Shown: one piece after another, positions 6,435-36,849 of the stretch
How positions within the stretch are numbered: position 1 is the first letter of the stretch
How the letters are laid out: each line of letters opens with the position of its first letter
Assembly (NCBI GenBank): GCA_903825645.1
Contig: CAIKBL010000055.1
Location: 1 to 45,379 of the forward strand
Direction: 5' to 3'
Source of the DNA: an uncultured Pseudomonadota bacterium
GTDB lineage: Bacteria > Pseudomonadota > Gammaproteobacteria > Ga0077536
Length of the DNA stretch: 45,379 nucleotides
Notes under the pieces: model-generated
Told to the model about the DNA's origin: nothing
The model's input: the letters and a program-made list of their open reading frames with translations, nothing else
The model's database searches: none
Position numbers and translations under genes: made by a program

Positions 6435-7817
6435 ATGAGCCGATTGGCCCCTTTACATTCGACCGCGCGGCGCGCTGCGCATGGCGGCTGGATAGCTTTT
6501 TTCCTGGCTTTTAGCGCGCATGTGCAGGCCTTGCCGGCATTTGCCCGACAGACGGGACAGAGCTGCGTCGCCTGTCACGCGGGGGGACAGTTTCCGGAGC
6601 TCACGCCCTATGGGCGCATGTTCAAGTTGACCGGCTATACCACAGGCACCCGAGGGATCCCGTTGTCAGTGATGGGGATCGTCAGCGAGACGAAGGCGAA
6701 GCAGAATCACGATGCCATGGGTGCTCCGATTGCCCCCAACGATTCCAACGTAATCGCCGACGGCGCGAGTCTCTTCATTGCTGGTAAAGTCACTGAGCGG
6801 GTGGGACTGTTCTCGCAATTTACCTATCTGGCGTCGGATCCGGGCACGGGCAAGGGACACTTCGGATCGGACAATTTTGATTTGCGGTATGCCGACCGCT
6901 TTGTCACGCCCGCGCGCGACATCGTCTGGGGTGTCACGTTGCATAACAATCCCGGCATGCAGGATGTCTGGAACAGCTCTACGGTTTGGGGCTATCCGTA
7001 CATCGGCTCATCACAGGGCGCTTTTGGCGGCGCGCCCTATGCGCCGGTGCTCGAGGGAGCCCTCGCGCAGCAGGCCGCCGGCGTCACCGCCTACGCCTAT
7101 TTCAATCAACATTTTTATGTCGAGGCCGGTGCGTACAAGACGGCCGATGGGATGTTCTCTTTCCTCAGCATTGGTAATAAATCGGGCAGCCAGAACTATC
7201 CGCAGACCTTCCTCGATGGTTATGCCCCGTATTTTCGATTGGCCTACACGCAGGAATGGGGCGCACACAATGTCATGGTCGGGGTAACGGGTCTTGATGT
7301 CCTGCTCGTCCCGCTTGACTCGCTATCGCACCGACCGCTCTATGGGGTCGGCACAACTGATAACCGGGATATTGGATTCGATGTCCAATACCAATACCTG
7401 CTTGCACCGCACACGCTCACGGCGGCGTTTCGGATCATCAATGAAGCCATCAACGACAAGAGCGGCCAGGCCGGGTATGCCGGCCCTCTTGTGTTGAATT
7501 CGTTGATGGCGAAGGTCAGCTATGTCTATCGCGCGCGTTACGGCGTCAGTGCTGCCGTGCGCCATGTGAGCGGCTCGCGCGATCCCGCTTACGCCGTGGG
7601 GGACGGCACCAATGCGTACACCATGAGTGCGTTAGGCTCGCCCGATACGACCGTGTGGACGCCGGAGTTATTCTGGCTGCCGATGGAAAATATCCGGGTG
7701 GGATTTCAGTACAACTTCTTCACGAAATATCTCGGCGCTTCTTCGAATTATGATGGAAATGGACGAAATGCCTCGGATAACAATGCTGCCTTTTTGTATT
7801 TCTGGGTAGCATTTTGA
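6435..7817 (+). CDS. Cyc2-like outer-membrane cytochrome-porin fusion
   Basis: 460 residues. A signal peptide ends near VQA, followed by ALPAFARQTGQSCVACH, FPELTPYGRMFKLTGYT and then about 400 residues of alternating, Tyr/Phe/Gly-rich beta-barrel sequence ending in Phe, the usual outer-membrane protein terminus. One CXXCH binds one heme c. The ARQTG-x2-C-x2-CH ... LTP-(F/Y)-GR-x-FK-x2-GYT arrangement is that of Cyc2, the fused monoheme cytochrome-porin known as the outer-membrane Fe(II) oxidase of iron oxidisers; relatives occur in organisms not known to oxidise iron. The role here is inferred as electron transfer across the outer membrane, direction unknown. A diheme cytochrome follows 27 nt downstream. 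The ATG has no clear ribosome site, and an FNR box lies upstream. Confidence 0.75.
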   Translation: MSRLAPLHSTARRAAHGGWIAFFLAFSAHVQALPAFARQTGQSCVACHAGGQFPELTPYGRMFKLTGYTTGTRGIPLSVMGIVSETKAKQNHDAMGAPIAPNDSNVIADGASLFIAGKVTERVGLFSQFTYLASDPGTGKGHFGSDNFDLRYADRFVTPARDIVWGVTLHNNPGMQDVWNSSTVWGYPYIGSSQGAFGGAPYAPVLEGALAQQAAGVTAYAYFNQHFYVEAGAYKTADGMFSFLSIGNKSGSQNYPQTFLDGYAPYFRLAYTQEWGAHNVMVGVTGLDVLLVPLDSLSHRPLYGVGTTDNRDIGFDVQYQYLLAPHTLTAAFRIINEAINDKSGQAGYAGPLVLNSLMAKVSYVYRARYGVSAAVRHVSGSRDPAYAVGDGTNAYTMSALGSPDTTVWTPELFWLPMENIRVGFQYNFFTKYLGASSNYDGNGRNASDNNAAFLYFWVAF

Positions 7818-7844: not shown

Positions 7845-8489
7845 ATGAGACTGCAGCACTGCATGATCGCCGCTAGCCTGTCGCTGGCCACCGTTCTGTT
7901 TGGGTGCGCGGCGCCGGAGCGAAGCCGTAATGTGGCCGATGCTCAGGTGAGCGGACAGACATTAGCTGTTCAAGTTTGTTCGATCTGCCATGGTGTGACC
8001 GGCAATTCCGTTTCGCCGCTTTACCCCAATCTTGCTGGACAACAAGAAGATTATCTGGTCGCTCAGCTGACTGATTTTCGGGGGCATGTGCGCAAGGATG
8101 GGGTGGCCACTCAGTACATGTGGGGCTTCACCCACCTGACGGAATCGCAAGTGAAGGAGCTTGCGAAGTATTTCGCGAGCCAGCCACCGATGCGATGCGA
8201 TGTGAACCCGAGTTCGGGGGCTAGAGAAAAAGGCGCGACAATTTTTGCGAAGGGTGCGTCTGATGCAAAGGTGACGCCGTGCGAATCCTGTCATGGTGTT
8301 GCCGGGCAGGGCGTCGGCACCATTCCACGGATTGCCGGCCAACATGCTGACTATCTCGCGAAGCAGATTGACGTTTTCCGAAATACCGATACCCGTCCCC
8401 GCGGTGCGGCGATGAAGATGGAATGCCATGCGCTGACTAAACCGGACGTGGATGCAGTCACCACGTATCTTGAAACGCTGGGGCGTTAG
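7845..8489 (+). CDS. Cytochrome c4-like diheme lipoprotein
   Basis: 214 residues with a lipoprotein signal (lipobox LFGC, Cys about 21). Two homologous cytochrome c domains follow: CSICHGVTGNS with PNLAGQQEDYLVAQL, and CESCHGVAGQG with PRIAGQHADYLAKQID. Each has one CXXCH and the GQ-x2-DYL helix typical of cytochrome c4, with Met residues downstream as likely distal ligands. c4 proteins shuttle electrons in the periplasm, usually to terminal oxidases. Lipidation would tether it to a membrane. The 27-nt gap after the Cyc2-like gene suggests co-transcription, which makes it the natural periplasmic partner of that protein. Confidence 0.85.
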   Translation: MRLQHCMIAASLSLATVLFGCAAPERSRNVADAQVSGQTLAVQVCSICHGVTGNSVSPLYPNLAGQQEDYLVAQLTDFRGHVRKDGVATQYMWGFTHLTESQVKELAKYFASQPPMRCDVNPSSGAREKGATIFAKGASDAKVTPCESCHGVAGQGVGTIPRIAGQHADYLAKQIDVFRNTDTRPRGAAMKMECHALTKPDVDAVTTYLETLGR

Positions 8490-8815
8490 GCTGCCGACCC
8501 CGTTTTTTGGGCGGTTTCCATCCCTGCGTCTATTTGGAGGCCGGGGTGGGTGGCGCGGTTGCCTGTGCCGAGGTGCGATCGACGCATTGTCCGTTGGATC
8601 GCCATCTCTATATATCGCAACGCGGGCGCAGAATGTTGGGTTGAGTGGGGTCGTTTTATCCCTCGCCAGCACTCGGTAGGGCGTTCACGGTGCGACGCCT
8701 AGGGAGCGGTCGCACCGGCCGGAGCACACTTTTTGACGGGTCGAAAAATTCAAGCATCGCATCCACCAACACGACGATATCGAAGTTAAATCATTTATCT
8801 CGAATACATATCTGA
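8490..8815. other. Gap before the giant cytochrome; no gene seen
   Basis: Nothing coding is supported. No CXXCH codons, signal-peptide frame or ribosome site for the downstream gene is visible in any frame. The stretch ends at the in-frame TGA 8813-8815, after which coding for the heme repeats is already under way. Confidence 0.55.
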
Positions 8816-8872
8816 TGTTTTCCGGTTACTTGGTCACCTGTTACTAAGGTCGACCACTCGCAGGTCTCCGGC

Positions 8873-11800
8873 GTGTGTTCAAGTTGTCACGACGGGGCTG
8901 TCCACGATGGCGTGACGGTGACGGGCCGGCCCGCGAAATTGTTGAATGGCCAGCCGCATCCCCCGACCGGGGAATGTTCCAATTGCCATGTGCCGGGCGA
9001 TCCGTCCTGGCACGCGAATCCGCACACGCCGGGCAACTTGGCGAACGGTTGTTTTGCCTGTCATAACGGGACGGCGGCGACCGGCAAGGGACCCACACAT
9101 CTGGCGACCTCGACGCTTTGCGCGAACTGTCATACCACGGCTGGTTGGTCACCGCAAAATTCGATGGACCACAGTCAAATCAACGTGCTGACCCCGTGCA
9201 TTGCCTGCCACGACGGTGGTAGCCATGACAGCGTGACCGTCGAGGGTAAAGATGCGAAGCACCTTCCCACTTTTGCCGACTGTACCAGCTGCCATACCGT
9301 GGCGGCCTGGGTACCGAGCACGACCTTCAACCATGCCGGCATCACCGGCAGCTGCGTGAGCTGTCACGCTGGACCGCCCGGCAACCCGACTTTCCCGCGG
9401 GCACAGACCAAGGGGGTTAACCATCTTGGGAGTTCGACAATCTGTCAGGCCTGTCACACCAGCACCTCCGCCTGGACCCCGCTGCTCGCAGCGCAGGTCG
9501 ACCACGCTCAGGTCACCGGGAACTGCACCAGCTGTCATGGGACGGCGCGCGCGTTGGATACTCTGACGACTGAGATCAAGCCCGTGGGACATCTCGCGAC
9601 GAGCTCAGATTGCGGAACATGCCACGCCACAACGGCCTGGAAGCCGGCGAGCGGCTTCGATCACGCCGGTATCACCAGTGGGTGTTCCGCCTCCGGGTGC
9701 CATGTTGACGGGAACACGACGCCCCCGCTGGGGCGTGGCGCGAGTCACATCGCAACCAACGCCAACTGTCAGGACTGTCACGCCGTCGGCATCGCGTTCA
9801 CGCCGCAGACGACGGTGAAGCATGCGGATATTACCGTCGAAACCCCTTGTGCGACTTGTCACGACGGTAAGGCGCACGACGGCCTGAACGTGACCGGTCT
9901 GAGCAGCGGTCATATTCCCACCAACATTCCCACCGCCAATGATTGTTCAACCTGTCATGTGGGGGCAGACACTAGTCTTTCTTGGACGGCAGGGACCTAC
10001 CACCCCCATGTGACCGTCAACGGCGCTTGTGCCAGCTGCCACGACGGGGTGCGACAACAAGGCAAGGGGGTGACACATATCCCGACCACGAAGGGGGTGG
10101 ATTGTGTCGCCTGTCACGCCGGCTCCCAGACAACGTTATCCTGGAGCGGCGGCACGTACTCCCACGCGGGGGTGACGAGTGGGTGCGCCGCCTGTCACGA
10201 CGGAAACCATTTGCCTGCGCAGGGCGTAGGTCCGAGCCATGTCGGCAGTACGACGGTATGCGAAGCCTGCCATACGGACTCGGCGGCTACGCTCTCCTGG
10301 ACCACGACGCCAGCGACCGGGCACATGAATCACGCGCAGCTGATCGCTGTTACGCCTTGCACGAAATGCCACGCGACGACTGCCGGAAGTAGCCTCACTG
10401 TGGACGGCATGACGGTGACGGGTCGACCGGTCACGACCACCAGCGGAGATCCGCATCCCACCACGGGGGATTGCGCCGGTTGTCATTCCACTACGGCCTG
10501 GAACAGCGTGACTTTCACACATAGCGGCGTGACCAGCGGGTGTTCAGGTTCCGGCTGCCATGTTGATGGCAACAAAGTCGCACCGTTGGGCCGGAGCACG
10601 AGCCATATGGCGACCAACACCAACTGTCAGGATTGTCATTCGATTGGTGGCACGTTCACCCCGCAGACGACGGTGAAGCACGCGGACATTACGACCTTGA
10701 AACCCTGCACGACCTGTCATACGGGGACGGTGCAGGACGGCATCACGGTGAGCGGCAAGAATGCTGCCCACATTCCGACAGTCGTTGACTGTGCCACCTG
10801 TCACGTAGGCGCCGAGACGACGCTATCGTGGCTGGGCGCGACCTATAGTCACGCGGGGGTCACCGGGGGTTGCGCGAGCTGTCACGACGGCACCCACGAG
10901 CAGGGAGCCGGCCCTGCCCACATCGGCACGAGCACGCTCTGTGAGGCCTGTCATACCAACGCAGCCGCGACGCTGTCATGGACGAGCACACCGACGACCG
11001 GGCATGTCGATCACACTCAAATTTCGGTTTTGGTGCCGTGTATCGCCTGCCACGCCACGGCGGGAGGTACCAATCTTACGCTGGATGGTTTCACCATCAC
11101 GGGACGGCCGTTGACAACTCCGGGAGGCGGCTCTCATCCGACCACCGGCGACTGTGGTAATTGTCATGGCACCACCAGTTGGGCGGGTTCTACCTTTAAT
11201 CACGCGGGGATCACGAGTGGGTGTACCGCGTCGGGTTGTCACGTTGATGGCAATACGGTCTCTCCGCTGGGGCGTGGCAAGAGTCATATCAAGACGAATA
11301 CGAACTGTCAGGACTGTCACGACATCGGGGTGACCTTTACGCCGCAGACGACGGTGAAGCACGCAGATCTGACGGCGCTGAAGCCCTGCGCGAGCTGTCA
11401 CACGGGGGCCGTGCAGGATGGGATCACCATCACGGGGGTGAACGCCGGCCACATCCCGACCAACGTTCCGAGTGCGACGGACTGCACGGTCTGCCACGTG
11501 GGATCGGAAAACAGTTTGTCCTGGACGGGTGGGGCGTACCACGCACACGTGGCGGCGACGTCGGCTTGTACGAGTTGCCATGTTGATGGCAATAGCAGTG
11601 CGCCGATAGGGCGGGGTGCGAGCCATATCAAGACCAACACGAATTGTCAGGATTGTCACAACGTCAGCACCTTCACGCCACCGCTGTTGCCGATGAATCA
11701 CGCGGATTTAACGACTCTGAAGCCTTGTGTCAGCTGTCATACAGGGACAGTGCAGGATGGGATCGCCATCGACGGCAAGGGCGGTTCGCATATTGCGAGC

Positions 11801-14182
11801 AGCACGACTTGCGATGCGTGTCACGGGACGGCGGCGTGGAATCCGGTGACGAAGGTGGACCACACCCAGGTTGCGGGGACCTGTGCGAGTTGTCATGACG
11901 GTGCGGCGCATGACGGGGTTACGGTCACGGGCAAGGGACCGACGCATATCGGCAGCAGCAGCGCCTGCGACGCCTGCCACACGAATTCTGCCGCGACCCT
12001 CTCTTGGACGAGCACACCCATTACCGGTGGTGTCGATCACACTCAGATTACCGCCACAACGCCTTGTACCCTGTGCCACGCCGATACGGCAGGTGGAAGC
12101 TTGACCCTCGATGGCATGACCATCACCGGTCGACCTCTTGCCACAGTGTTGCTGCCCAATGGGACCAAACATCCCGGGGCCGGCACTGGCGATTGCGGCG
12201 CATGTCACGGCATGACGGCCTGGATCCCAGCCGCAGGGTTCAGCCACAACGGCATCGTGAACGGATGCAGTGCGGCCGGCTGTCACGTTGACGGCAATAC
12301 GAGCCCCCCCCTGGGCAGGGGTGCGAGCCACATCAAGACCAATACGAACTGCCAAGATTGTCACGCCATTGGGGTGACGTTCACGCCGCAGACGACGGTG
12401 AAGCACGCGGATATCACGGCGCTGACGCCGTGCGCAGCCTGCCACACTGGCGCGGTACAGGATGGCATCAAGATTACCGGATTGGTCAGTAATCATATCC
12501 CGACCAATCTGCCCAGCCAGAACGACTGTGGCGCCTGTCACGTCGGGGCCGACACCAGTCTGTCCTGGGCAACGGCGCAGTTCCACAGTCACGTGCCCGT
12601 TACGTCGGGTTGCGCGAGTTGTCATTCGGGGACGTACACGACCTGGAATGCTCAGGCAAAATCCGCGACGCACATTGCGTCCACCAGCAACTGCCAGAAC
12701 TGCCACAGTACGAGCATCTGGAATCCGGTGACGAGTGTCGACCACAGCCAGGTCACGGGCGCCTGCTCAACCTGTCACAACGGCACGACGGCCACCGGCA
12801 AGGGACCGCTCCACATCCTGTCCAGTGCAGCCTGCGATGCCTGCCACAAGACCTCGGCGTCCTCGTTGCTCTGGGTTCCCGTCTTGGCCTCGAATGTTGA
12901 TCACACCCAGATCACGGCGCTCACGCCTTGTGCAAGTTGTCATGATGGTGGTGCGCACGATGGGGCGACGATAGAAGGCAAGGATCTGAATCACCTGGCG
13001 ACGACGACCGTCTGCGAGGATTGTCACAACGGCAACAGCACCGCGCCCAGCTGGTCCATCCCCGTTGCTGCGAACGTCAATCACCTTGACGTCACTGGGG
13101 CGTGTGTTACCTGTCACCAAGATAATGGGACCAAGAAGACCGGCCTCGGTACCGCCATTCAGGGCCGTAATACGGCAACTCACATGAAAACGACTACCAT
13201 GTGCGCCGATTGCCATGCGACGAGCACCTGGAATCCTTACACGCAGGTCAACCATGCCGACGTTATTGGTGTTTGCACGACCTGTCATGCCAACGCGGCC
13301 GGTACGAGCCTGACGCTGGACGGTGTGACGGTGCAGGGACGGCCCTCTAATGCGGTCCATACCAATACGAGCACACTGGCGATGGCGTGCGACGCCTGTC
13401 ACTCGACCACGACGTGGACGACCAGTACCTTCAACCATACGGGGATCACCACGGGCTGCGCCAGTTGCCACAATGGCACGCTTGCGACAGGGCGGCCCGC
13501 CGATACTTTCCACGTCAAGGTGAAAACGACCGCGGCTTGCGAAACGTGTCATGTCAGCACACTGGCCTGGACACCGGTCAACACTATCGACCATACACAG
13601 CTCACGACGACCACCCCGTGTTCGAGCTGCCATAACGGCACGATCGCGAATGCCAAGCCTGCGGATACGATCCACAATCAGACCACTACCGATTGCGTGA
13701 ATTGCCACACCACGACGTCCTGGATCGTGACGACTTTCGATCACACCGGATTTACCGGGGCCTGTAACAGCTGTCACAACGGCACGACGGCAGTGGGCAA
13801 GTCGACCGGACATTTTCTCACCACGCGGGACTGCGGTTATTGCCACAACACGACGGCCTGGACGACGCTCACCTTCAAGCACCAGTCCGCCAACTTCACC
13901 ATGAACAAGCTGGACACTCATGCGCAATGGCCCACCATGGCCGCGAACTGCGGCGCGTACTGCCATCCCGGCAATGCGGAGGCGACGCCTTATCTCAGCA
14001 CTGGGGTCGCCTATGCGCCGTATTGTGCGGCTTGCCACGTGGCGCAGTGGTCGGCGAGCGCCCACAAGAGCCACGTGCCGAATACGCTGATTTCCCACGA
14101 AAACTGCTCGAGCGTTTGCCACAGTGCGACCTCGACCATTCCGGTACAACACAAAGTCTCAGCCTCCAGCTTCAGCAACTAG
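8873..14182 (+). CDS. Giant multiheme c-type cytochrome, 5' end apparently missing
   Basis: 1,769 residues with, by hand count, 57 CXXCH motifs, plus four CX4CH (near 9683, 10541, 11222 and 12266) and two CX3CH near the C-terminus: about one heme per 31 residues. The protein is built from degenerate modules such as VDHTQVxGxCxSCHDG, GxGxSHIxTNxNCQDCH and FTPQTTVKHAD, low in bulky hydrophobics, as expected of a heme wire. GTG 8873 is the only available start after TGA 8813, yet repeat-like coding (WSPVTKVDHSQV) is already in frame from about 8828. There is therefore no signal peptide, which c-type heme attachment in the periplasm requires. Either the gene lost its 5' end or an upstream part is missing from the sequence. 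It lies 383 nt after the c4-like gene. Partners and electron-flow direction are inferred. Confidence 0.8.
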   Translation: MCSSCHDGAVHDGVTVTGRPAKLLNGQPHPPTGECSNCHVPGDPSWHANPHTPGNLANGCFACHNGTAATGKGPTHLATSTLCANCHTTAGWSPQNSMDHSQINVLTPCIACHDGGSHDSVTVEGKDAKHLPTFADCTSCHTVAAWVPSTTFNHAGITGSCVSCHAGPPGNPTFPRAQTKGVNHLGSSTICQACHTSTSAWTPLLAAQVDHAQVTGNCTSCHGTARALDTLTTEIKPVGHLATSSDCGTCHATTAWKPASGFDHAGITSGCSASGCHVDGNTTPPLGRGASHIATNANCQDCHAVGIAFTPQTTVKHADITVETPCATCHDGKAHDGLNVTGLSSGHIPTNIPTANDCSTCHVGADTSLSWTAGTYHPHVTVNGACASCHDGVRQQGKGVTHIPTTKGVDCVACHAGSQTTLSWSGGTYSHAGVTSGCAACHDGNHLPAQGVGPSHVGSTTVCEACHTDSAATLSWTTTPATGHMNHAQLIAVTPCTKCHATTAGSSLTVDGMTVTGRPVTTTSGDPHPTTGDCAGCHSTTAWNSVTFTHSGVTSGCSGSGCHVDGNKVAPLGRSTSHMATNTNCQDCHSIGGTFTPQTTVKHADITTLKPCTTCHTGTVQDGITVSGKNAAHIPTVVDCATCHVGAETTLSWLGATYSHAGVTGGCASCHDGTHEQGAGPAHIGTSTLCEACHTNAAATLSWTSTPTTGHVDHTQISVLVPCIACHATAGGTNLTLDGFTITGRPLTTPGGGSHPTTGDCGNCHGTTSWAGSTFNHAGITSGCTASGCHVDGNTVSPLGRGKSHIKTNTNCQDCHDIGVTFTPQTTVKHADLTALKPCASCHTGAVQDGITITGVNAGHIPTNVPSATDCTVCHVGSENSLSWTGGAYHAHVAATSACTSCHVDGNSSAPIGRGASHIKTNTNCQDCHNVSTFTPPLLPMNHADLTTLKPCVSCHTGTVQDGIAIDGKGGSHIASSTTCDACHGTAAWNPVTKVDHTQVAGTCASCHDGAAHDGVTVTGKGPTHIGSSSACDACHTNSAATLSWTSTPITGGVDHTQITATTPCTLCHADTAGGSLTLDGMTITGRPLATVLLPNGTKHPGAGTGDCGACHGMTAWIPAAGFSHNGIVNGCSAAGCHVDGNTSPPLGRGASHIKTNTNCQDCHAIGVTFTPQTTVKHADITALTPCAACHTGAVQDGIKITGLVSNHIPTNLPSQNDCGACHVGADTSLSWATAQFHSHVPVTSGCASCHSGTYTTWNAQAKSATHIASTSNCQNCHSTSIWNPVTSVDHSQVTGACSTCHNGTTATGKGPLHILSSAACDACHKTSASSLLWVPVLASNVDHTQITALTPCASCHDGGAHDGATIEGKDLNHLATTTVCEDCHNGNSTAPSWSIPVAANVNHLDVTGACVTCHQDNGTKKTGLGTAIQGRNTATHMKTTTMCADCHATSTWNPYTQVNHADVIGVCTTCHANAAGTSLTLDGVTVQGRPSNAVHTNTSTLAMACDACHSTTTWTTSTFNHTGITTGCASCHNGTLATGRPADTFHVKVKTTAACETCHVSTLAWTPVNTIDHTQLTTTTPCSSCHNGTIANAKPADTIHNQTTTDCVNCHTTTSWIVTTFDHTGFTGACNSCHNGTTAVGKSTGHFLTTRDCGYCHNTTAWTTLTFKHQSANFTMNKLDTHAQWPTMAANCGAYCHPGNAEATPYLSTGVAYAPYCAACHVAQWSASAHKSHVPNTLISHENCSSVCHSATSTIPVQHKVSASSFSN
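9601..12620 (+). repeat. Long internal repeats in the giant cytochrome gene
   Basis: A module of roughly 300 bases recurs four times. Each copy has the CX4CH motif (9683, 10541, 11222, 12266), then VDGN, a GRG-x-SHI segment, NCQDCH and FTPQTTVKHAD. A fifth, partial copy near 11573 has CTSCH instead of CX4CH. Spacings are about 858, 681 and 1,044 bases. The DNA similarity would favour recombination between modules and complicate short-read assembly. Confidence 0.75.
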
Positions 14183-14197
14183 CCCGCCGCGGCGGGC
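14182..14197 (+). terminator. GC-rich hairpin after the giant cytochrome
   Basis: GCCCGCC-GC-GGCGGGC starts at the last base of the stop codon. It has a strong stem but a 2-nt centre and no T-run, so intrinsic termination is uncertain. Confidence 0.35.
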
Positions 14198-14345
14198 GAG
14201 TTACTGAAGCCGAACGGGAGGGTCCGATTGGGCGGTCGATCGAGCATAAGGCGGACGGGCACGACATGATGAGCCGCAAGCCCTTTCACTGGATTACACT
14301 GGGGACCTCTGACGCCGATCATCGCGGGGAGGCCGAGAGGTTGCC

Positions 14346-22633: not shown

Positions 22634-24277
22634 TCAATGCGGGGCGTGCCCGGTCACTGTACGGACCACGGCGGCCGACTCGGCGGGGGTCTCGTGCCCG
22701 CGCCAGGCGATATGTTGGTCAGGTCGGATCAGCACGAGCGGGTAACCCTCGTATTTGGTGTGCGCTACGGGCTCCGTGACAGCGAGGATATGTAACGGTA
22801 CTCCGGCGGCGGCGAAGGCGGTGATTAGATCGTGCGCAGGCGGGGGCGCGGTGCCGATCTGCAGCAGTGTGAAACCGGATCCGAAGTCGTCGAACAGAGC
22901 ATGACCATCATTTCGCCAGAAATGCGGTGCGCGGACACCAGGACAAGAGGACTCGACATAGCTATTGATGGCGAATGGGATCGCCGCGGCGCCATCGTCG
23001 CACACGATGGGGGAGCCCGCATAGGTGATGCCGAGCTGCATGCCGATGCTGTCGAATTCGGCCAGATTGTGGGCTGTGATCAACTGACCGATTTCAGCTC
23101 GACGTCGATCGGCGTCGGCGCCTTCTGCCTCAAAAGCCGGCTCCTGTACGGGAATGCGGTAGAGATCTTCAAAAATGCGGGCAGCCGATCCGGCGACCAG
23201 TTGGCCGATCGATCGGCGTTCGGATTCGTAGCTGTCGAGAATTTCCGGGGCCCCCCATCCCGCGAGCACGGCCCACAATTTCCACGAGAGGTTGACGGCG
23301 TCCTCGACTCCGGCATTCATGCCAAAGCCGCCCATCGGGATCCATATGTGGGCCGCGTCGCCACATAGGAACACCCGGTCCTGACGGTAGTGATCCGCCA
23401 CCATGGCGCGCGCTGTCCAGCGCTCTTGTCCCAAGATCTCGTATTCCAGATCAGCCCCGAGCGCTTGGCGAATGGCCTGCTCATGGTCATGCGCATCCAG
23501 ATCTCCCTCTGGACTCAGAATGGAATGATGCAACCACAGATCCCGACCATCGATGGCCACAATGTGACTCTCTCCCTGTGCATTATAGAGACGATGCATC
23601 CACGCCGCCTTGTGTGGCCAGGCGGCGGTCAACGCAGGCGATTTCAGGTACGTCGTGCAGAATTTGGCGACACATTCGCGACCCTCGAGCCGCGCGCCGA
23701 TATCGCGCCGGATTCGGCTATGGCCACCTTCACACGAGACAAGGTAGCGGGCCCGGATCGTGTGTTGAGCACCGGTCGCACATTCTTCGACCAGACAATC
23801 GACGTGGGTGTCGGTTTGGGTAAAGGACAGGAACCGCCACCCTTCACGGTAATCGCACGCCGTGAACGTGCGGGTATGCGCCCGCAGGACTGGCTCCATC
23901 GCCAGTTGCGAGATCCGATGTTGCGGTTCCGCGGTCGGCCAGTACTCGTCGATCGCCCCGGTACCGCTCACGCGTGCGGACACTTCGGCCGACGAGCGGA
24001 GTGTGTATCGGGTGAGCTCCTTGCCAAGCCACCGGGTGGCGTAAACGACGTCGGTGGCATAGTCTTCGGGGAGTCCGGCTCGGCGGATAGCCTGCGCGCA
24101 ACCCAGACGCCGAAAGTGCTCCATCGAGCGCGCGTTGGTGGTGTTGCATTTCGGGTTCGGCGGCATGGCGAGCCGCTCTTCGACCACGATTGAGCGTATG
24201 CCGTGGGAGGCGAGATCCAGCGCAAGCGTGGTGCCGACGGGACCACCGCCTGCAATCAAGACGGGAATTTCTATCAT
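22634..24277 (-). CDS. FAD-dependent aromatic monooxygenase (PHBH/MhpA-like)
   Basis: 547 residues. The dinucleotide-binding GGGPVG (about residues 10-15), the NTTNARSMEHFRRLG segment, and GDAAHIWIPMGGFGMNAG (about 306-323) with the GD-x-AH-x3-P FAD/NAD(P)H motif identify a class A flavoprotein hydroxylase. A C-terminal thioredoxin-like domain of about 150 residues follows, as in phenol 2-monooxygenase, MhpA and polyketide hydroxylases. Reaction: NAD(P)H- and O2-dependent hydroxylation of an aromatic ring, likely producing the catechol that the divergent extradiol dioxygenase cleaves. It is the first gene of the operon with SMP-30 and TetR. Confidence 0.9.
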   Translation of the reverse strand: MIEIPVLIAGGGPVGTTLALDLASHGIRSIVVEERLAMPPNPKCNTTNARSMEHFRRLGCAQAIRRAGLPEDYATDVVYATRWLGKELTRYTLRSSAEVSARVSGTGAIDEYWPTAEPQHRISQLAMEPVLRAHTRTFTACDYREGWRFLSFTQTDTHVDCLVEECATGAQHTIRARYLVSCEGGHSRIRRDIGARLEGRECVAKFCTTYLKSPALTAAWPHKAAWMHRLYNAQGESHIVAIDGRDLWLHHSILSPEGDLDAHDHEQAIRQALGADLEYEILGQERWTARAMVADHYRQDRVFLCGDAAHIWIPMGGFGMNAGVEDAVNLSWKLWAVLAGWGAPEILDSYESERRSIGQLVAGSAARIFEDLYRIPVQEPAFEAEGADADRRRAEIGQLITAHNLAEFDSIGMQLGITYAGSPIVCDDGAAAIPFAINSYVESSCPGVRAPHFWRNDGHALFDDFGSGFTLLQIGTAPPPAHDLITAFAAAGVPLHILAVTEPVAHTKYEGYPLVLIRPDQHIAWRGHETPAESAAVVRTVTGHAPH

Positions 24278-24296
24278 GGGAAAGATCCGTTAAGGT

Positions 24297-24314
24297 CTGT
24301 AACGGATGTTACAG
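24297..24314. promoter_or_regulatory. Palindromic operator candidate between divergent catabolic genes
   Basis: CTGTAACGGATGTTACAG is a perfect inverted repeat (7-bp arms, 4-nt centre) 20 nt upstream of the FAD monooxygenase start and 156 nt upstream of the dioxygenase. Its length and symmetry suit a TetR dimer, and the TetR gene ends the same operon. Confidence 0.55.
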
Positions 24315-24469
24315 TTAAAAACTTACAAAGATCGCCTTCGACGTGAGGTAGCCGATTTTCGCTTTAAAAAATCCCGTATTGCACACGGGAGCGGATCCGA
24401 AATACTAATGTAGTGATTGATACGCCAAGGCCTGTGACTGCAGCGGCGTAGGTAAAGGGAGTACACACG

Positions 24470-25348
24470 ATGAATACGGTTATGCGACTAGGCTATCTAG
24501 GATTTGAGGTGAGCGACGTGGACGCTTGGGAGGCGTTCGGGGTGGATTTGGTCGGTTGGCAGGGTGAGCGGCAGACGCCTTCGTTGTTGACGGCGCGTAC
24601 CGATACGCAGGCACGGCGCTTGTTTTTCCACCAGGGTAGTCGGGACGATTTGATCTTCGCCGGCTGGGAAGTGGCGGATGAAGCCGTATTGCGAGATATC
24701 GGACGTCAACTCACGGAAGCCGGTTTTGCGGTGACTGAGGGCAGCTTGGCGGAGGTACAGGAACGCGGGGTGGAAGCGCTCGTTCGTTTCACCGATCGGG
24801 CCGGCAATCCGCTCGAGCTGTTTTGCGCGCCGATGATCGCGTCAGCGCCCTGTTCAACACCGTTGCAGTCACAAGGGTTCGTAGCAGGCAGCAAGGGGCT
24901 AGGCCACTATGTGGCAGGCCATCCCGATCTGGCGGCAGCCCGCGCGCTCTATTGCGACATTCTGGGCATGCGGATCAGTGATTACATTCTCATCCCGACG
25001 CCGGACGGCGGTTCGGTTCGAGCCATGTTCCTGCATTGCAACACTCGACACCATTCCGTTGCGTTAGTCGATGCATCGTTGCCCCACAAGATTGATCACT
25101 TTTGTCTCCAAATGCAGGCTTTTCAGGATTTGGGGTTGGCTCACGACCGTTTCGTGGCCTCCCGTTACGCGATTCGTAACTCCCTTGGCCAACATCCGAA
25201 CGACCTGGGCGTCTCGTTCTATGCGGCCACGCCGTCACGGATCTCGGTCGAAATCAGCTGGTCGGACTTCGAACTTGAGGAAGCAGGATGGACGACCCGA
25301 ACCTTTGATCGCACTAGTCTCTGGGGACATCACCCGCCGGCAAAATGA
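24470..25348 (+). CDS. Type I extradiol ring-cleavage dioxygenase (BphC-like)
   Basis: 292 residues made of two vicinal-oxygen-chelate modules. The Fe(II) ligands fall almost exactly where BphC of Burkholderia xenovorans has them: His146 (GLGHYV), His210 (KIDHF) and Glu261 (ISVEISW); His195 (TRHHSVAL) matches the catalytic His. The enzyme opens catechol-type rings next to the hydroxyl groups; bicyclic or steroid-type catechols are common substrates of this branch. GGGAG lies 8 nt before the ATG. It is divergent from the FAD monooxygenase operon, consistent with successive steps under common control. Confidence 0.9.
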   Translation: MNTVMRLGYLGFEVSDVDAWEAFGVDLVGWQGERQTPSLLTARTDTQARRLFFHQGSRDDLIFAGWEVADEAVLRDIGRQLTEAGFAVTEGSLAEVQERGVEALVRFTDRAGNPLELFCAPMIASAPCSTPLQSQGFVAGSKGLGHYVAGHPDLAAARALYCDILGMRISDYILIPTPDGGSVRAMFLHCNTRHHSVALVDASLPHKIDHFCLQMQAFQDLGLAHDRFVASRYAIRNSLGQHPNDLGVSFYAATPSRISVEISWSDFELEEAGWTTRTFDRTSLWGHHPPAK

Positions 25349-26439
25349 TTCGTGCGGCCGCGATCTGGGGCCTATCGGACAGCCTTTGAAGGTAGATGTC
25401 GTGTCTTGAGCATGTCAATTCGTAGTGGGCTTTAATACTTTTAATATCAGATATCCTCATTAACTTATTAAAAATTATAAATAAAACAAAAATATTAATG
25501 TGACATCTTAGGATTGGGCGGGGCATGCTGTCGCCGCAGGATTTATCGTCCGTCGTGCATCATGGGACGGCATTGTCGGCCCATGATGCACGCGTTCACG
25601 TGGCAAGGCGGTCGCGCTTGGGACGAACGCGCGAAACAGGCGATGCGCCCGGCGGGGCGCTAAAGATCGGATCGCATCAGCGGGCGCGCGCACGTTATCG
25701 CCGAGCGTTCGTCGAGCCGAGTCTGTGGGTTTCGATGTTCAGCAACCAGCCGCACCTACCGAGCGACGTTTCACCGCGCGCGTCGGTGATTAGACCCTGA
25801 CGAGTCGAGCAACCGTCGGGATCTGCGGGATTGGGCTTGACGGTCCTTGTCAGGTGCCCAGCGGGCGGCGCCTACCCGTCGCGACGCTTGCCACGCCGGG
25901 ACCTTTTATTACGTGGCGCAGGATGACGCCGTACCGGTGTGGGGTCGGGCGCCCCCATGTAGTCTTAATGCTGCGCCGCCGTCGTTGACGTCCCGCTGAG
26001 CCCGAACACACACGCTTTTGCGGTCGGCATTAGCCCCGTCATTCATGGGCCATTCTATGGCAGGCCCGTCGTGAGTCTGGCCGGGATAGTGCAAGGCAAT
26101 GCCGGAGCCATCGAAGGACAAGCTTGCTGCCCCTATCATCGGCTGCACTGCTCAGGGCAAGCCCGGATCTGAGCAGACGACGCTCACACGAGTCCTTCAT
26201 TCCTTATGATATCGTGGTTGTCTGTAGAATAGGGCGCGGCCCGCACGACCGGGTATGTCACCGGCGCAGCGGCGTTATGAGCCTGTTCAGTCGAGATGTG
26301 GCTAACTTCCCAGCTTGCCTCAGGCGTCGCGCCTGCTTTGTCTACCGCCAGCATGACTTATGGTGTCCTGTACTCGCCTGTCGATGGTGCGCTGCGGCGG
26401 ACCGACATTTGCGAGTCAGGAGCGCTTCGGAGCCCTGAA
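25349..26439. other. Long gene-poor stretch with a 13-bp inverted repeat
   Basis: About 1.1 kb without a supported gene. It starts with a strongly AT-rich block (about 25425-25505) that stands out from the GC-rich surroundings, then contains a 13-bp inverted repeat (25554-25592). The rest is GC-rich with short open frames lacking motifs. The efflux operon promoter should lie near 26200-26430, but I cannot place a confident -35/-10 pair. Confidence 0.5.
25554..25592. repeat. Perfect 13-bp inverted repeat
   Basis: Arms CGTGCATCATGGG (25554-25566) and CCCATGATGCACG (25580-25592) enclose 13 nt. No T-run follows on either strand, so a simple terminator is unlikely. It could be a regulator site, a stable RNA hairpin or the end of a decayed element. 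Confidence 0.6.
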
Positions 26440-27729
26440 TTGCAGTCTATAAAAAGTATTAGCGTCATCGTGGTGTGTGTGATTCTCGCCGGTTGGGGCG
26501 CGACTATCCTACGGCCCCGATTGTTTGGCGAGGGAGCATCGTCTCCGCCGCGTGGCGAGTCTCGTGTACCGGGCGCCTCGATAGTTCCGGTCTCCGCAGT
26601 GCCGGTGCGTCGAGGCGAAATGAAAGTCACTATCGACGCTCTGGGAACGGTAATCCCCGTATCGACAGTGCTGGTTCGTTCGCGGGTCGACGGCGAGCTC
26701 ATACGTCTCCATTTCCGCGAAGGACAGCTCGTCAAAGCGGGCGAACTGCTCGCGGAATTGGATCCGCGTCCTTACCAGGCAGCCTACGATCAGGCGTCCG
26801 GCCAACTCAAAAGGGATGAAGCCCTGCTCAATGTGGCACGGTTGGATGCCCGGCGTTATCGAGAGCTTCTGGCCGAAGACGCGATCGCCGCGCAACAGGT
26901 TGAAGATCAGGATTGGCTAGTCAGGCAGGATGAAGGGATCGTGGCGATGGACAGGGGGGCGGTGGCCACCGCCCATGTACAGTTGGACTACACACGGATC
27001 ACCTCTCCGATCACGGGGCGCGTGGGTCTGCGTCAGGTGGATGTTGGGAACATTGTCCATGCGGCCGATGCCGGCGGCCTGGTGGTGGTGACGACGCTCG
27101 AGCCCATCACGATCGTCTTTTCCATTCCGTCCGAAACATTACCGGGTGTCCTCGAGCAGTTGCGGGTCGGACACACGCTGCGCGTGCTCGCGTTTGATCG
27201 TGCAGGCAAGACGTTGCTGGCGACGGGACACTTGCTCGCGCTCGACAATCAAATCGATATTGCGACCGCCATGCTCAAGCTAAAGGCCGAATTCGAGAAC
27301 CACGATCGGCGCCTGTTCCCCAACCAGTTCGTCAATATCAAGCTTGAAGTAGATACCCGCCGTGACGTGTTGCTGATCCCGCAAGGCGCGGTCCAGAACG
27401 GACAGAACGGCACCTTTGTTTATACCCTCAACCAAGCCGACATCGTCTCCTTACGTCCGGTCGTACTCGGCCCGAGTGACGAGCAGGCCAGCGTCGTGGA
27501 ATCGGGCCTCCAGAGTGATGAATGGGTGATCACCGAAGGCGTTGACCGCCTCCACGAGGGTAGCAAAGTTCAGCGGGCAGCGCCCCAGGACACCGCCAAT
27601 TCGCCCTCTAGCGCGCCTCCCAAAGAGGGCAGGGAAGATACGAACGGGCATGATAAAGCGCACCGTGGTGGGAACGAGCATGGTAAAGCGCGGCATGGGC
27701 GAGACAAAGCACAAGACGCTGCTGCCTGA
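26440..27729 (+). CDS. mdtA: RND efflux periplasmic adaptor (MdtA-like)
   Basis: 429 residues from TTG 26440, which has GGAG 7 nt upstream; the frame stays open further upstream (an ATG gives MTYGVLYSP), but the chosen start puts the membrane anchor [17 protein letters not shown] at the N-terminus, as in MdtA. The lipoyl/hairpin region ([38 protein letters not shown]), coiled coil, beta-barrel ([21 protein letters not shown]) and membrane-proximal domains follow in order. The C-terminus has an unusual His/Lys/Asp-rich tail of about 45 residues. It links the two downstream RND pumps to the outer-membrane channel. Confidence 0.9.
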
Positions 27730-27746
27730 GTGCGGGCGATTACCCT

Positions 27747-30700
27747 GTGAATCCGTCTCGAATCTTTATCCTGAGACCTATCGCGACGTCGCTCGTCATG
27801 GTCGCGATCCTGCTTTCCGGGCTGCTCGCCTATCGACTTTTGCCAGTGGCCGCGCTTCCGCAGGTCGATTTTCCGACCATCGAGATCATGACGCTGTACC
27901 CGGGCGCCAGCCCGCAGGTCACGGCGTCGGCCATTACCGCACCGCTTGAACACCAGCTCGGCCAGATGCCGGGACTGAAACAAATGTTGTCCACCAGCTC
28001 CGGGGGCGCATCCGTCATCACGCTCCAGTTCGGGCTGGATCTCCGTCTGGGCGTTGCCGAGCAAGAGGTACAAGCGGCGATCAACGCCGCGACCAGTTTG
28101 CTGCCACAAGACCTGCCGATGCCACCGGTCTATCACAAGATCAATCCGGCTGACGCACCGATTCTGACGCTCGGGATCACGTCTAGCACGTTGGCGCTGC
28201 CGAAGGTACATGAACTGATTGACACCCGTGTTCTACAAAAACTTTCCGAGGTCTCGGGCGTCGGATTTGTAAGTGTGGATGGCGGACAGCGACCTGCGGT
28301 CCGCGTGCAGCTGAATCCCGCAGCGCTCGCGGCTAGCGGGCTTAATCTGGAGGATGTGCGGACCGCGATTAGCGCCGCCAATGTCAATTTGCCGAAGGGC
28401 AGTTTTGACGGCCCGTCGCGCGCCTCCACGCTCAATGCGAATGATCAAATGTATAACGCAGAGCAGTATCGGCGACTTGTGATCGCTTATTCAAACGGCG
28501 CGCCGCTGCGGTTGAGCGATGTCGCGAGCGTCGTGGATGGGGCGGAGAATACGCAGCTAGCGGCATGGTCAGGACTGACCCCGGCGCTCGTACTGAACAT
28601 CCGACGTCAACCAGATGCCAATGCCATCGCGACGGTCGATCGCATTCGGGCGATCTTGCCAAAACTGATCGCGACGCTACCCGGCGCAATCGACGTCCAG
28701 ATCTTGACCGACCGGACCACCACCATCCGGGCGTCGGTCCACGATGCGGGCCGAGATCTGTTGTGCTCGGTCGGATTGGTAGTGCTCGTTATCTTTCTTT
28801 TCTTACGCAATGCCCCGGCGACGCTTATTCCGAGTGTTGCCATTCCACTGTCGTTGGTCGGTACTTTCGGGGGAATGTACCTGTTCGGGTTTGGTCTGAA
28901 CAACATGACGCTGATGGCGCTGACCATCGCGACCGGGTTCGTCGTCGATGACGCGATCGTCATGATCGAGAATATCGCGCGCCATGTTGAAGGCGGCGCC
29001 TCGCCCCTAGAGGCGTCCCTGAACGGCTCCGCGCAGATAGGATTTACGATCATCTCTCTCACGATTTCGCTCGTCGCGGTGCTCATCCCCCTGCTGTTCA
29101 TGCGGGATGTGGTCGGGCGATTGTTCTTCGAATTCGCCTGTACCCTCGCCATGGCGATTTTTGTCTCAGCGTTCCTTTCGCTGACACTGGTGCCTGCCTT
29201 GTGCGCAAAATTCTTGCCCGTCGGTGGCCACCGGACGCGCGCCGAGCGGCTGGCGCAAAAAGGACTATTCGGTCGCGTGACAACGATGTACGGGCGGCAG
29301 CTTGACTGGGTGCTCGATCGTCAAGGGGCGACTATCCTCGTGGCGGTGGGGCTGCTGCTACTCACGATCGGGCTCTATTTTATCGTCCCAAAGGGTTTCT
29401 TCCCGGTCCAGGATACAGGCGTTATCCAAGGCATTACGGAGGCGCCACAGGCGATTTCCTTTCCGGCGATGACCGAGCGCACCCTCGCCCTAACCCGTAT
29501 TGTCCTGGCCGATCCAGCGGTCGAGAGTCTGTCATCCTTTATTGGCGTCGATGGGGAGAATCCCACGCTGAATAGTGGCCGCTTTCTCATCAATCTGAAG
29601 TCACGCGAATCTCGCGTGGACTCGATGCTCGAGATCATCCATCGCTTGCAGCGGGCCCTCGCGCAGGTCGAGGGTATCGCGACATTCCTGCAGCCTGTGC
29701 AAGATCTGACGGTCGAGAACCGGGTGGGGCGTAGCCAATACCAACTCACGCTGCAATGTCCCGATCAGGCAACCCTTTCGCATTGGATTCCGCTGATTCT
29801 CGCGCGACTCCGGCAGCTACCCCAGCTGACTGGGGTAGCTTCTGATCTGCAAGATGAGGGAAAAATTGCCTATCTCGAGGTCGATCGCGATATGGCAAGT
29901 CGTCTGGGTATCACGATGGCGGCGATTGACAACGTCCTCTACAACGCTTTCAGCCAGCGCTTCGTGTCGACGATTTTTACGCAAAGCAGCATCTATCGAG
30001 TCGTCCTTGAAGTGAAACCCGAGTCGCAGCAAGGACTCGGCGCACTGGACGGAGTGCGTCTGGTGAGCAGCACCGGTAACTCGGTGCCGCTCAGCGCACT
30101 CGCGCATGTCGTTGAGAAACGCGGGCTGCTCGCGATCAATCACAGCGCCCAATTTCCCGCGACGACAATTTTTTTCAACCTTTCGCCAGGTGCATCGCTG
30201 GGAGATGCGGTGGCGCAGATTAAAAGCGTGATTGCCGATCTTGATTTGCCCCCTGACGTTGAGCCCGCGTTTCAGGGCGCAGCATCTGCTTTCCAGGCGT
30301 CACTCTCCAGCACGGTCTGGCTCATCCTCGCGGCAATCGTCGTGATGTACATCGTGCTCGGTGTGCTTTACGAGAGTTACATCCACCCGGTGACTATACT
30401 CTCGACGCTGCCGTCGGCAGGCGTGGGTGCGCTTCTGGCCTTACTTATCTCGCGGACGGAACTCGGGATTGTCGGCATCATTGGCATCGTGTTGTTGATC
30501 GGGATCGTGAAAAAGAACGCGATCATGATGATCGATTTCGCGCTGCTCGCTGAGCGCCAATTCGGGAAATCACCCCGAGAGGCCATCCACTCGGCCTGTC
30601 TGCTGCGGTTGCGCCCAATCTTGATGACGACTTTTGCGGCGCTGTTTGCGGCATTACCCCTGATGTTGGGGAGTGGTACGGGATCCGAGCTCCGGCAGCC

Positions 30701-30845
30701 CCTCGGACTGACCATGGTGGGCGGACTGTTATTCAGTCAACTCTTTACGCTTTTTACGACGCCGGTGATCTATCTGGCTTTCGATCGGCTGGTCCGACAT
30801 CGGCATAAGCGATCCGCAGTCTTGCCGATGGGCCACGGCGAATGA
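27747..30845 (+). CDS. mdtB: RND efflux inner-membrane pump (MdtB-like)
   Basis: 1,032 residues, standard for hydrophobe/amphiphile RND pumps, with 12 membrane segments and two large periplasmic loops. Family features include [20 protein letters not shown] at the N-terminus, [13 protein letters not shown] in TM4 (the Asp-Asp proton relay) and [18 protein letters not shown] in TM10 (the relay Lys). It probably forms a heteromer with the next gene product, as MdtB does with MdtC. It starts with GTG 17 nt after the adaptor and overlaps the next gene by 4 nt (ATGA). No substrate can be deduced; bile-salt, novobiocin and solvent-like compounds are typical. Confidence 0.92.
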
Positions 30846-33800
30846 ATTTCGTCGACGTTTTTATTGCCCGACCGGTAGGCACGGCGCTGTTGACGCTTGG
30901 CGTGGCGATTGCGGGGATCCTCTGTTTTTGCCTACTGCCTGTGACACCCCTGCCACAGGTCGATTTTCCGACGATTATGGTGTCGGCAAGTTTGCCTGGT
31001 GCCAGTCCGGAAAACATGGCGGCAACGGTCGCAGCGCCACTTGAACGTACGCTGGGCGAAATCGCCGGTGTCAATGAGATGACCTCGACCAGCGCCCTTG
31101 GCAGCACCACCATCGTGCTGCAGTTTGACCTCAGCCGAAAAATCGACGGTGCGGCCAACGATGTTCAGGCGGGGATTAACGCGGCATTGGCGCTTCTGCC
31201 TGCCGGCCTGCCGATCAATCCCAGTTATCGGAAGGTCAATCCGGCGGATGCGCCCATCATGCTGCTCTCGCTCACCTCGAACGTCCTGACGCAGGGCGAG
31301 CTCTACGATCTCGCTTCGAGTCGCCTGGGGCAGCGCCTATCCCAAGTCGCCGGGGTAGGGCAGGTGACGGTGGGCGGCAGTGCACTACCGGCGGTACGGG
31401 TGCGGGTGAACCCGCGGGCATTGAGCAATCTCGGCCTCGGCATTGAAGATGTGCGCACGGCCATCGCCACGGCCAACGTCAATACGCCTAAGGGTGCGCT
31501 GGCGGATTCGGCGCACCGCTGGCAAATCGAAGCCAACGACCAGTTGAACACTGCCCGTGATTATCGACCCGTCATCATCCGGTACCTTCACGGCAGTCCG
31601 GTTCGCTTAGGCGATGTGGCGGATGTGACTGATTCGGTACAGGACGTGCGTAATGCCGGTTTCGTAAAGGGCGAGACAGCCGTACTGCTAGTGCTGAATC
31701 GGCAGCCCGGCGCTAATATCATTGAAGTAGTCGAACGGATCCGCGCACTCGTGCCGGTGTTACGCGGCATGATACCGGCGACCGCGGAGCTGTCTATCGT
31801 GATGGACCGGACGCCGACAATCCGAGCCTCGCTCCGCGAGGTGGAGATCTCCCTCGTCATCGCAACCTTACTGGTGGTTGCGGTCATCTACGTGTTTTTG
31901 CGGAACGGCCATGCGGCGCTTATCCCAACCGTCGGGGTCACGGTGTCGCTGCTGGCAAGCTTTATTGTGATGTATCTCGCGAAGTTCAGTCTGAACACGA
32001 TTTCGTTAATGGCGCTGACCGTCTCGACCGGTTTCGTGGTAGATGACATGGTCGTCGTGATGGAAAACTGTGCACGTCATGTGGAAGCCGGTATGGATGC
32101 CGTGGAGGCTGCACGTCGTGGCGCACGGGATGTCAGTTTCACGGTGATCTCGATGAGTGTCTCGCTCGTGGCCGTATTTCTGCCAATTCTCCTCATGGGG
32201 GGGCTCATCGGACGAATGTTGCGGGAGTTCTCCGTAACGCTTGCCGCAGCGGTCTTGGCCTCGCTGGTGGTCTCGCTGACCACGACGCCCATGATGTGTG
32301 CGCGTTTGTTGCGTCCCGAGTACGCGCGTACAAACCATGGCTGGTTTCTCCGGCTTACCGAGCAGATTTATGACCGCAGTCTTGCGTTTTACGAGGAGAG
32401 TCTCGATTGGGCGCTGCGGCATCGTCGAAGCGTGGTCGTTATTTTCTTCGCGACCCTCGCATTCAATATCTATCTCTACATTCATGTGCCGAAAAGCTTC
32501 ATGCCGGAACAAGATACCGGGCGACTATCCGGCTATTTTCAGGCTGATCAGGGCATTTCTTTCACAGCGACCCGCGACAAGCTTCTCGAGATGCTGGCGA
32601 TCGTGAATCGCGATCCTGCGGTGGAGACCGCGATGGGGGTGGTGGGCGGACAACGCGCGGGCGGACAGGTGTTCGTGGTCTTGAAACCTCTCGCGCAACG
32701 CCACATGACCGCGAACGCCGTCATTGCTCGCCTGCGTCCACAGCTGGCGCATATCCCGGGCGTTATTCTTTATCTGCAACCAGTGCAGGATATTCGCTTC
32801 GGCGGACGTTCGGCCAATGCGCTTTATCAGTACACGCTGCAGGCCCCGAGCGTGGAGGAGCTCCGCACTTGGGCACCTAAAGTTCTGGCCATGATGCAGA
32901 AGCTGCCGTCACTGGTCGATGCCAATTCAGATCAGCAGGAACATGCGGTTGAAGTGTACCTCTCAGTGAATCGGGATATGCTGGCCCGCCTCGGCGTCGT
33001 CGAACGGGATATTGATAACGCGCTCAACGATTTTTTTGGGCAGCGCCTTGTGTCAACTATCTACGCGGCCCAAAACCAATACCGGGTCGTACTCGAGGCG
33101 GGAACGGATTTCACGCAGAGCCCGGAATCGCTGCAAGATCTCTACGTGAAGACGCCAACGGGTCTGCAGGTACCGCTGCTCCAATTAAGCAGCAGCAAGA
33201 TGGGGGCGACGCCGTTATCCGTCAATCATCAGGGCCTGCTGGCCGCGACAACGCTGTCCTTTAATCTGCCCCCCGGGGTGCCCATGTCACAGGCAACGTT
33301 GGCACTCGAAGCTGGGATGGCGAAACTGCACATGCCGACCACTGTGCAGGGATCGTTCCAGGGTACCGCGAAGGTTTTTCAAGAGTCCCTCGACAGTCAG
33401 GTACTACTCATCATCGCGGCTTTGATCACCGTCTACGTTGTCCTGGGCATGCTCTATGAGAGCTACATTCATCCCTTGACGATTCTCTCGACGTTGCCGT
33501 CCGCAGGGGTCGGCGCCATTCTGGCACTCGAATTCTGCCGGATGGATTTCAGCATCATCGCCATGATTGGGGTTGTTCTGCTGATTGGGATCGTGAAAAA
33601 AAATGCCATCATGATGATTGACTTTGCGCAGCAGAGTCGGCGGGAGCGCTCGGTCACACCGGAGCAGGCGATCCGTGAGGCGTGCGTGCATCGGTATCGG
33701 CCGATCCTGATGACCACCGTGGCGGCCTTGCTGGGCGCATTACCATTGGCCATTGGTTTCGGCGATGGGGCCGAGCTGCGCCAGCCACTCGGCGTGTCGA

Positions 33801-33934
33801 TCGTTGGTGGTCTCGCCCTCAGTCAGTTACTGACGCTATATACCACCCCGGTGATTTATCTCTATCTGGACGCTTTCGGACGTTGGCTGCGCGAAAGGCT
33901 GACCGTTGTCCGCTTGCGGAGTGCGCCTAAATGA
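30842..33934 (+). CDS. mdtC: RND efflux inner-membrane pump (MdtC-like)
   Basis: 1,030 residues, paralogous to the preceding gene. It opens with [20 protein letters not shown] and has [13 protein letters not shown] (TM4 Asp residues), the large porter loops and [20 protein letters not shown] (TM10 Lys). Overlap with mdtB-like upstream and the outer-membrane factor gene downstream is 4 nt in each case, so the proteins are probably made in fixed proportion. The pair of adjacent, non-identical RND genes is the hallmark of the MdtBC type. Confidence 0.92.
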
Positions 33935-35352: not shown

Positions 35353-35377
35353 GCGCGCGGGATACGGCGCACGGCGT

Positions 35378-35398
35378 TAGCGAAAGGACCGTTCGCTA
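35378..35398. terminator. Hairpin between convergent genes
   Basis: TAGCGAA/TTCGCTA arms (7 bp) around 7 nt, overlapping the stop of the Rieske gene. There is no T-run. It could help separate the efflux operon from the convergent Rieske gene, but evidence is weak. Confidence 0.25.
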
Positions 35399-36595: not shown

Positions 36596-36849
36596 GGCGT
36601 TGCCTCGCGAGAGTTCACCGGTTTCAGTTCGACCGGCGAGACGCACTGAGCGGACCGGTTGTCTCGATTGTCGCTAATCCGGTGCAACCTTTCCAGCCTC
36701 GCGGCGGGGTGGGTGCCGGTCGCCTAGGCTTTGTGCCCGCCAGCAAGGCGCGTGAGATAGTCGGGCCCGTCGGCGCCGCCGGGACACTGGCGCCGCGAAC
36801 GACCCTGCGCGACTATGTCTTAACTACATATAAATGCAGAGGATCTCAC

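Follow-up and report, generated by a model that had tools for sequence, protein, structure and literature searches.

A probable remnant of a PCC3-type extracellular multiheme cytochrome gene in an uncultured gammaproteobacterium

A forward-strand reading frame of 1,769 residues (8873-14182), lying in a 45,379-nucleotide stretch of DNA from an uncultured gammaproteobacterium that was analysed at its full length (the window), raises the question of whether it encodes a complete and working heme wire. From an automated count, the frame would be entered as a wire of 57 hemes and its host credited with extracellular electron transfer; the start of the gene and the lack of partner genes speak against this, and the electron-transfer route seems lost. 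We consider it likely that what remains here is about 1,780 codons from the 3' side of a gene for a PCC3-type extracellular cytochrome, a recently orphaned remnant and not a working wire. The features on which the argument turns are collected in Table 1.

Table 1. Positions of the cytochrome frame, its edges and its upstream neighbours in the window
Feature	Position	Strand	Details
Single-CXXCH porin-like cytochrome, Cyc2-like architecture	6435..7817	+	Neighbour; motif at residue 44 of 460, C-terminal Phe
Cytochrome c with two CXXCH	7845..8489	+	Neighbour; Pfam Cytochrom_C, 2 stretches
Stretch expected to hold leader and first 11 heme motifs	8490..8830		Six-frame motif scan, genome copy search
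Open frame of PCC3-type extracellular multiheme cytochrome, probably 5'-truncated	8816..14182	+	1,788 codons; homology to L016:2181-14438
Breakpoint, first codon (Trp) homologous to L016	8831..8833	+	Corresponds to L016:3132, residue 318 of the 4,086-codon stop-to-stop frame
Inverted repeat over stop codon	14169..14210	+	21-nt arms, 90% complementary, no spacer

Heme motifs and repeat structure of the frame

The automated count for the 1,769 residues gave 57 CXXCH, two CX3CH (residues 1693 and 1745) and four CX4CH motifs (residues 271, 557, 784 and 1132), 63 CH motifs altogether, and agrees exactly with the hand count of the earlier note; when the residues were shuffled 1,000 times, CXXCH motifs averaged 0.68 with a maximum of 5. 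The frame is real and uninterrupted from stop to stop. It consists of repeats rich in small residues that carry one heme site apiece, with 28.4 residues per motif. At least one further histidine stands in the linker preceding 62 of the 63 motifs, and the 79 spare histidines of the 1,788-codon frame should allow almost all hemes to be bis-His ligated. All four CX4CH sites have the signature GC-x4-CHVDGN in common, which is the mark of a larger repeat unit spanning several hemes.

Cytochrome_C7 (12 stretches) and MtrC/MtrF-like domains were found in the frame above the Pfam cut-offs; with NCBIfam, four of five hits fell under the cut-off and only the three-heme domain TIGR04257 passed. At E<=0.001 no PDB chain matched the protein by sequence, a result that leaves room for a shared fold, and a structure prediction for frame residues 1-330, made with 24 aligned stretches, reached a mean pLDDT of 58.1 and a pTM of 0.34. 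The inverted repeat over the stop codon folds with -38.3 kcal/mol (z -4.3; 14150-14230) and is possibly a transcript-end hairpin.

The missing start and an intact relative

The frame opens at 8816, directly after a stop codon and mid-way in a repeat module. No start-like codon is in frame before GTG 8873, which precedes the first CXXCH by one residue and is not convincing as a gene start. Leaders were judged by hydrophobic runs and by eye, and no signal peptide or leader was seen at the start of the frame or in the upstream frames read by eye. We considered whether a frameshift conceals the true start and rejected this, since these upstream frames hold neither a leader by eye nor a heme motif.

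The closest relative found is a giant frame (L016:2181-14438) in a groundwater Gammaproteobacteria MAG of the same family (G013), where it occupies an identical position in contig 17 and in JACQWY010000013.1. This frame has 4,086 codons from stop to stop and carries 133 CXXCH, 1 CX3CH and 10 CX4CH, a total of 144 motifs, and it is 68% identical to the window frame over 908 aligned codons and 62.5% identical over another block of 1,021. GC-x4-CHxDG super-modules are common to both frames, the ten CX4CH sites of the relative show a signature similar to that of the window, and the C-termini are of the same kind. The relative, itself uninterrupted, differs from the window frame by some 2,000 extra codons of repeats in its middle and by the PCC3-like cluster around it. 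Although its source is a metagenome assembly, its length is probably no assembly artefact, because the longest exact repeat within it is 74 bp.

The first 317 codons of the relative's stop-to-stop frame, which encode a hydrophobic leader, an N-terminal module and 11 CXXCH, are absent from the window copy. By DNA comparison, no similarity to the relative was found upstream of 8831, and the edge is sharp and falls mid-module. The stretch in which the lost part would be expected (8490-8830) contains no heme motif in any of the six frames, and no second copy of it was found in the window genome; likewise, the N-terminal 740 residues of the relative matched the window genome only inside the window frame (E<=1). 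The N-terminal module, FDHxxTxFxL ahead of the first CXXCH, was present in 14 of 14 related extracellular-type frames (13 by the strict pattern and L018 by eye), a set without frames, L019 for example, that run off a contig end, and a hydrophobic leader run was picked up by a crude scan in 13 of them, the exception being L026. The module was derived from these same relatives and is likewise seen close to the beginning of some periplasmic cytochromes; the window frame has neither the module nor the leader. Thus, with a GTG almost adjoining the first CXXCH, no leader seen and no N-terminal module, a complete gene starting at 8873 is very unlikely.

Homologues are scattered. At E<=0.001, 8 of the 58 genomes searched as relatives matched, the window's own included and G034 and G049 only weakly; with a C-terminal query at E<=1e-8, matches were obtained in 2 of 36 family genomes and 1 of 6 genus genomes, the window's own counted each time, and a wider draw from the class gave at least 41 of 369 genomes at E<=1e-10. 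Among the matches listed, the longest stop-free frames have 4,086 (G013), 1,833 (G071), 1,788 (window), 1,721 (G069) and 1,703 (G382) codons. Since G071 (73 CXXCH), G069 (69 CXXCH and 1 CX3CH) and G382 (67 CXXCH and 1 CX4CH) have comparable counts, the window frame does not stand out among the large members by its heme number. The description of the protein as very heme-rich therefore holds for the number itself and not for its standing in its own family, where large relatives carry 67-73 CXXCH and the giant one 133. In G071, four extracellular-type multiheme cytochrome frames stand in tandem (L095:1787-17833, reverse strand; 37, 73, 33 and 23 CXXCH), which suggests that heme numbers may also rise through gene duplication.

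Partner genes, neighbours and the state of the locus

The cluster around the giant relative runs in the order inner-membrane protein, 24-heme cytochrome, giant cytochrome and porin-like protein, the 24-heme gene lying directly upstream of the giant one and the porin-like gene directly downstream; it also includes a ferredoxin-pyridine-nucleotide oxidoreductase-like protein and a TPR-like protein. The inner-membrane protein displays, as read by eye, two WX3HX13H motifs and SGXXG, with no Pfam hit, while the porin-like protein is so named by its position and by its homology to proteins that follow the cytochrome elsewhere, its Pfam hits being SPOR/TPR only. This predicted layout matches, by gene content and order and not by published sequences, the PCC3 cluster as He et al. 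(2017) outline it in the available part of PMC5566968, where the inner-membrane protein has two WX3HX13H motifs and SGXXG. In the loci compared, homologues of the window cytochrome adjoin a gene for a 21-24-heme cytochrome. The window frame itself has the traits of a PCC3 extracellular cytochrome, namely numerous heme sites, a low residue-to-heme ratio and homologues in clusters of PCC3 layout, which supports the view that the predicted protein belongs by descent with this group.

As a working member of the group, however, the window copy appears to fail. With queries from G013, the porin-like protein, the inner-membrane protein (two WX3HX13H, SGXXG) and the 24-heme periplasmic-type cytochrome each gave 0 matches in the window genome (G000), while each matched in all four control genomes (G013, G052, G057 and G036), three of which are independent, since G013 supplied the queries. 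Within the window, no porin-like gene of this kind was found, including the 31 kb of contig that lie 3' of the cytochrome.

Selection has nevertheless left its mark. Between the window and G013, dN/dS was 0.146 over 908 codons and 0.208 over 1,021 codons, with dS of 1.67 and 1.49 in the same two blocks, so that synonymous sites are near saturation, and within these blocks the window frame has retained all heme CH of the relative. The low dN/dS and the kept heme CH indicate that purifying selection acted on a functional gene here through most of its past. The frame is free of internal stops and has all its motifs, which limits any neutral divergence since the truncation to about 0.5% substitutions per site, a figure that assumes neutrality and ignores indels. 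The intact motifs therefore imply that the truncation is recent, or that the gene is still used, or that the contig was misjoined near 8830; a remnant is our preferred reading, although the intact frame is also compatible with continued use of the gene or with a misjoin, the genome is a 90-contig draft, and a truncation event would be deduced from the present sequence and not directly observed.

An assembly error is an unlikely competitor: the contig would be misjoined at about 8830, or neighbouring sequence dropped, and the living organism would have an intact PCC3-type locus. Neither a sharp, mid-module junction with all motifs intact nor a genome in 90 contigs is at odds with such an error, and no synteny in the regions of five relatives vouches for the flanks; compared with 21 window genes, these regions share too little to show an empty or an intact site, and no close relative with an undamaged locus was found among 6 genus and 36 family genomes. 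The listed completeness of the draft is 99.51%, yet three partner genes give no match in it, and no porin-like gene turns up on the 3' side although the contig runs on there. Moreover, the sequence upstream of the junction has no second copy in the genome, and exact direct repeats inside the window frame reach no more than 28 bp, which makes repeat-driven misjoining unlikely.

That the frame is a complete working wire from GTG 8873, with a Cyc2-like porin-cytochrome next to it and an exchange of electrons to or from solids, humics or partner cells, appears very improbable to us. Its 63 intact motifs, their spacing and the past purifying selection would suit a wire, and a porin-like cytochrome and a two-heme cytochrome c stand upstream on the same strand; but with no signal peptide seen there is no route to the heme-attachment machinery, the N-terminal module is missing and the PCC3-type partners are unmatched in the genome. 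The upstream neighbour does not mend this. A terminal Phe, with which the porin-like cytochrome ends, is typical of Cyc2-like proteins; no Pfam or NCBIfam hit was obtained for this neighbour, and of 36 genomes searched, 4 have a match to it, one of these being the window genome itself (row L055, seemingly read on the wrong strand or frame, was left out of alignment A2). In two genomes of the same family that have it, G004 and G018, its homologue stands without a giant cytochrome, and because the adjacency is not conserved there it gives no evidence of a shared pathway. The electron exchange that the earlier note suggested from this neighbour is not supported.

We also hold out very little prospect for a fragment that moved in as a piece, by transposition or recombination, and that now acts as a silent donor of sequence or is mere junk. 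Neither flank resembles the PCC3-like loci compared, as a moved piece would have it, but the flanks share no repeat longer than 9 bp and none was reported in the left flank, there is no second genome copy to receive donated sequence, and the third-position GC of the frame (0.718) is within the 0.60-0.73 spanned by eight other genes of the window. The frame is followed by an acyl-CoA-dehydrogenase-type gene that is HsaA-like, under the cut-off of that model. Elsewhere, the window encodes aromatic or steroid degradation-like proteins (22637-37635; FAD monooxygenase, extradiol dioxygenase and Rieske oxygenase) with an RND efflux set of two pump genes amid them, a match to the di-heme cytochrome c peroxidase / MauG family (43079-44587, reverse strand) and a protein with a PEP-CTERM sorting motif (1313-1957).

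Returning to the orphaned remnant, its intact relatives suggest what may have been lost. In these, going by the literature, the protein would probably be exported, heme would be attached in the periplasm, and a bis-His heme chain with sites about 28 residues apart may carry electrons, the path leading between the periplasmic 21-24-heme cytochrome, the porin-like protein and the outside. The motifs, the spare histidines and the gene order of the partners can be read from the sequences, and export, heme loading and the wire function come from published work. The window copy has no export signal, so it should be neither exported nor loaded with heme. Thus, the modular long heme wire that the earlier note described stands as ancestry, through homology to giant cytochromes in PCC3-like clusters, and falls for this copy, which lacks a signal peptide, the N-terminal module and the partners. 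On balance, we lean slightly towards a broader picture in which PCC3-type cytochromes gain and lose multi-heme super-modules, reaching at least 144 motifs in a relative, and in which the window holds a wire just cut from its membrane anchor genes.

Comparison with known multiheme systems

The idea of a long heme chain is embodied by the Geobacter cytochrome nanowires of the OmcS/OmcE/OmcZ type. The window protein shares this idea with them, with no PDB match by sequence. Nearer by gene content and order, and not through published PCC3 sequences, are the PCC3 extracellular cytochromes, for which the available text of PMC5566968 gives a median of 34 sites, examples of 63 and 85, and 22-39 residues per motif; the 28.4 of the window frame fall within this range. 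The window copy differs in that it lacks the leader and the N-terminal module and that its genome has no match to the other three genes. PCC3-like giant cytochromes have been proposed in the literature, untested, as molecular wires; PCC3 cytochromes of Gallionellaceae are modelled as long and mostly linear in the part of PMC10734462 at hand, and an excerpt of PMC12442390 has the function of PCC3 still untested in 2025.

Very many motifs per chain are also known from different organisms, set beside the window by description only: 86 in a single Desulfuromonas acetexigens protein (PMC12133095) and 112 in a single protein of a Paludibaculum MAG (PMC11495043), according to the portions of these papers available, and gene neighbourhoods with over a hundred motifs are mentioned in a portion of PMC11475568. 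With 63 motifs the window frame is below the single-protein counts of 85, 86 and 112 given in these sources. The 144 motifs of its intact relative are above all three, as these counts stand in the available parts of open-licence PubMed Central papers, and that protein is the more interesting object and a promising subject for finding out what length a heme wire made of one chain can attain.
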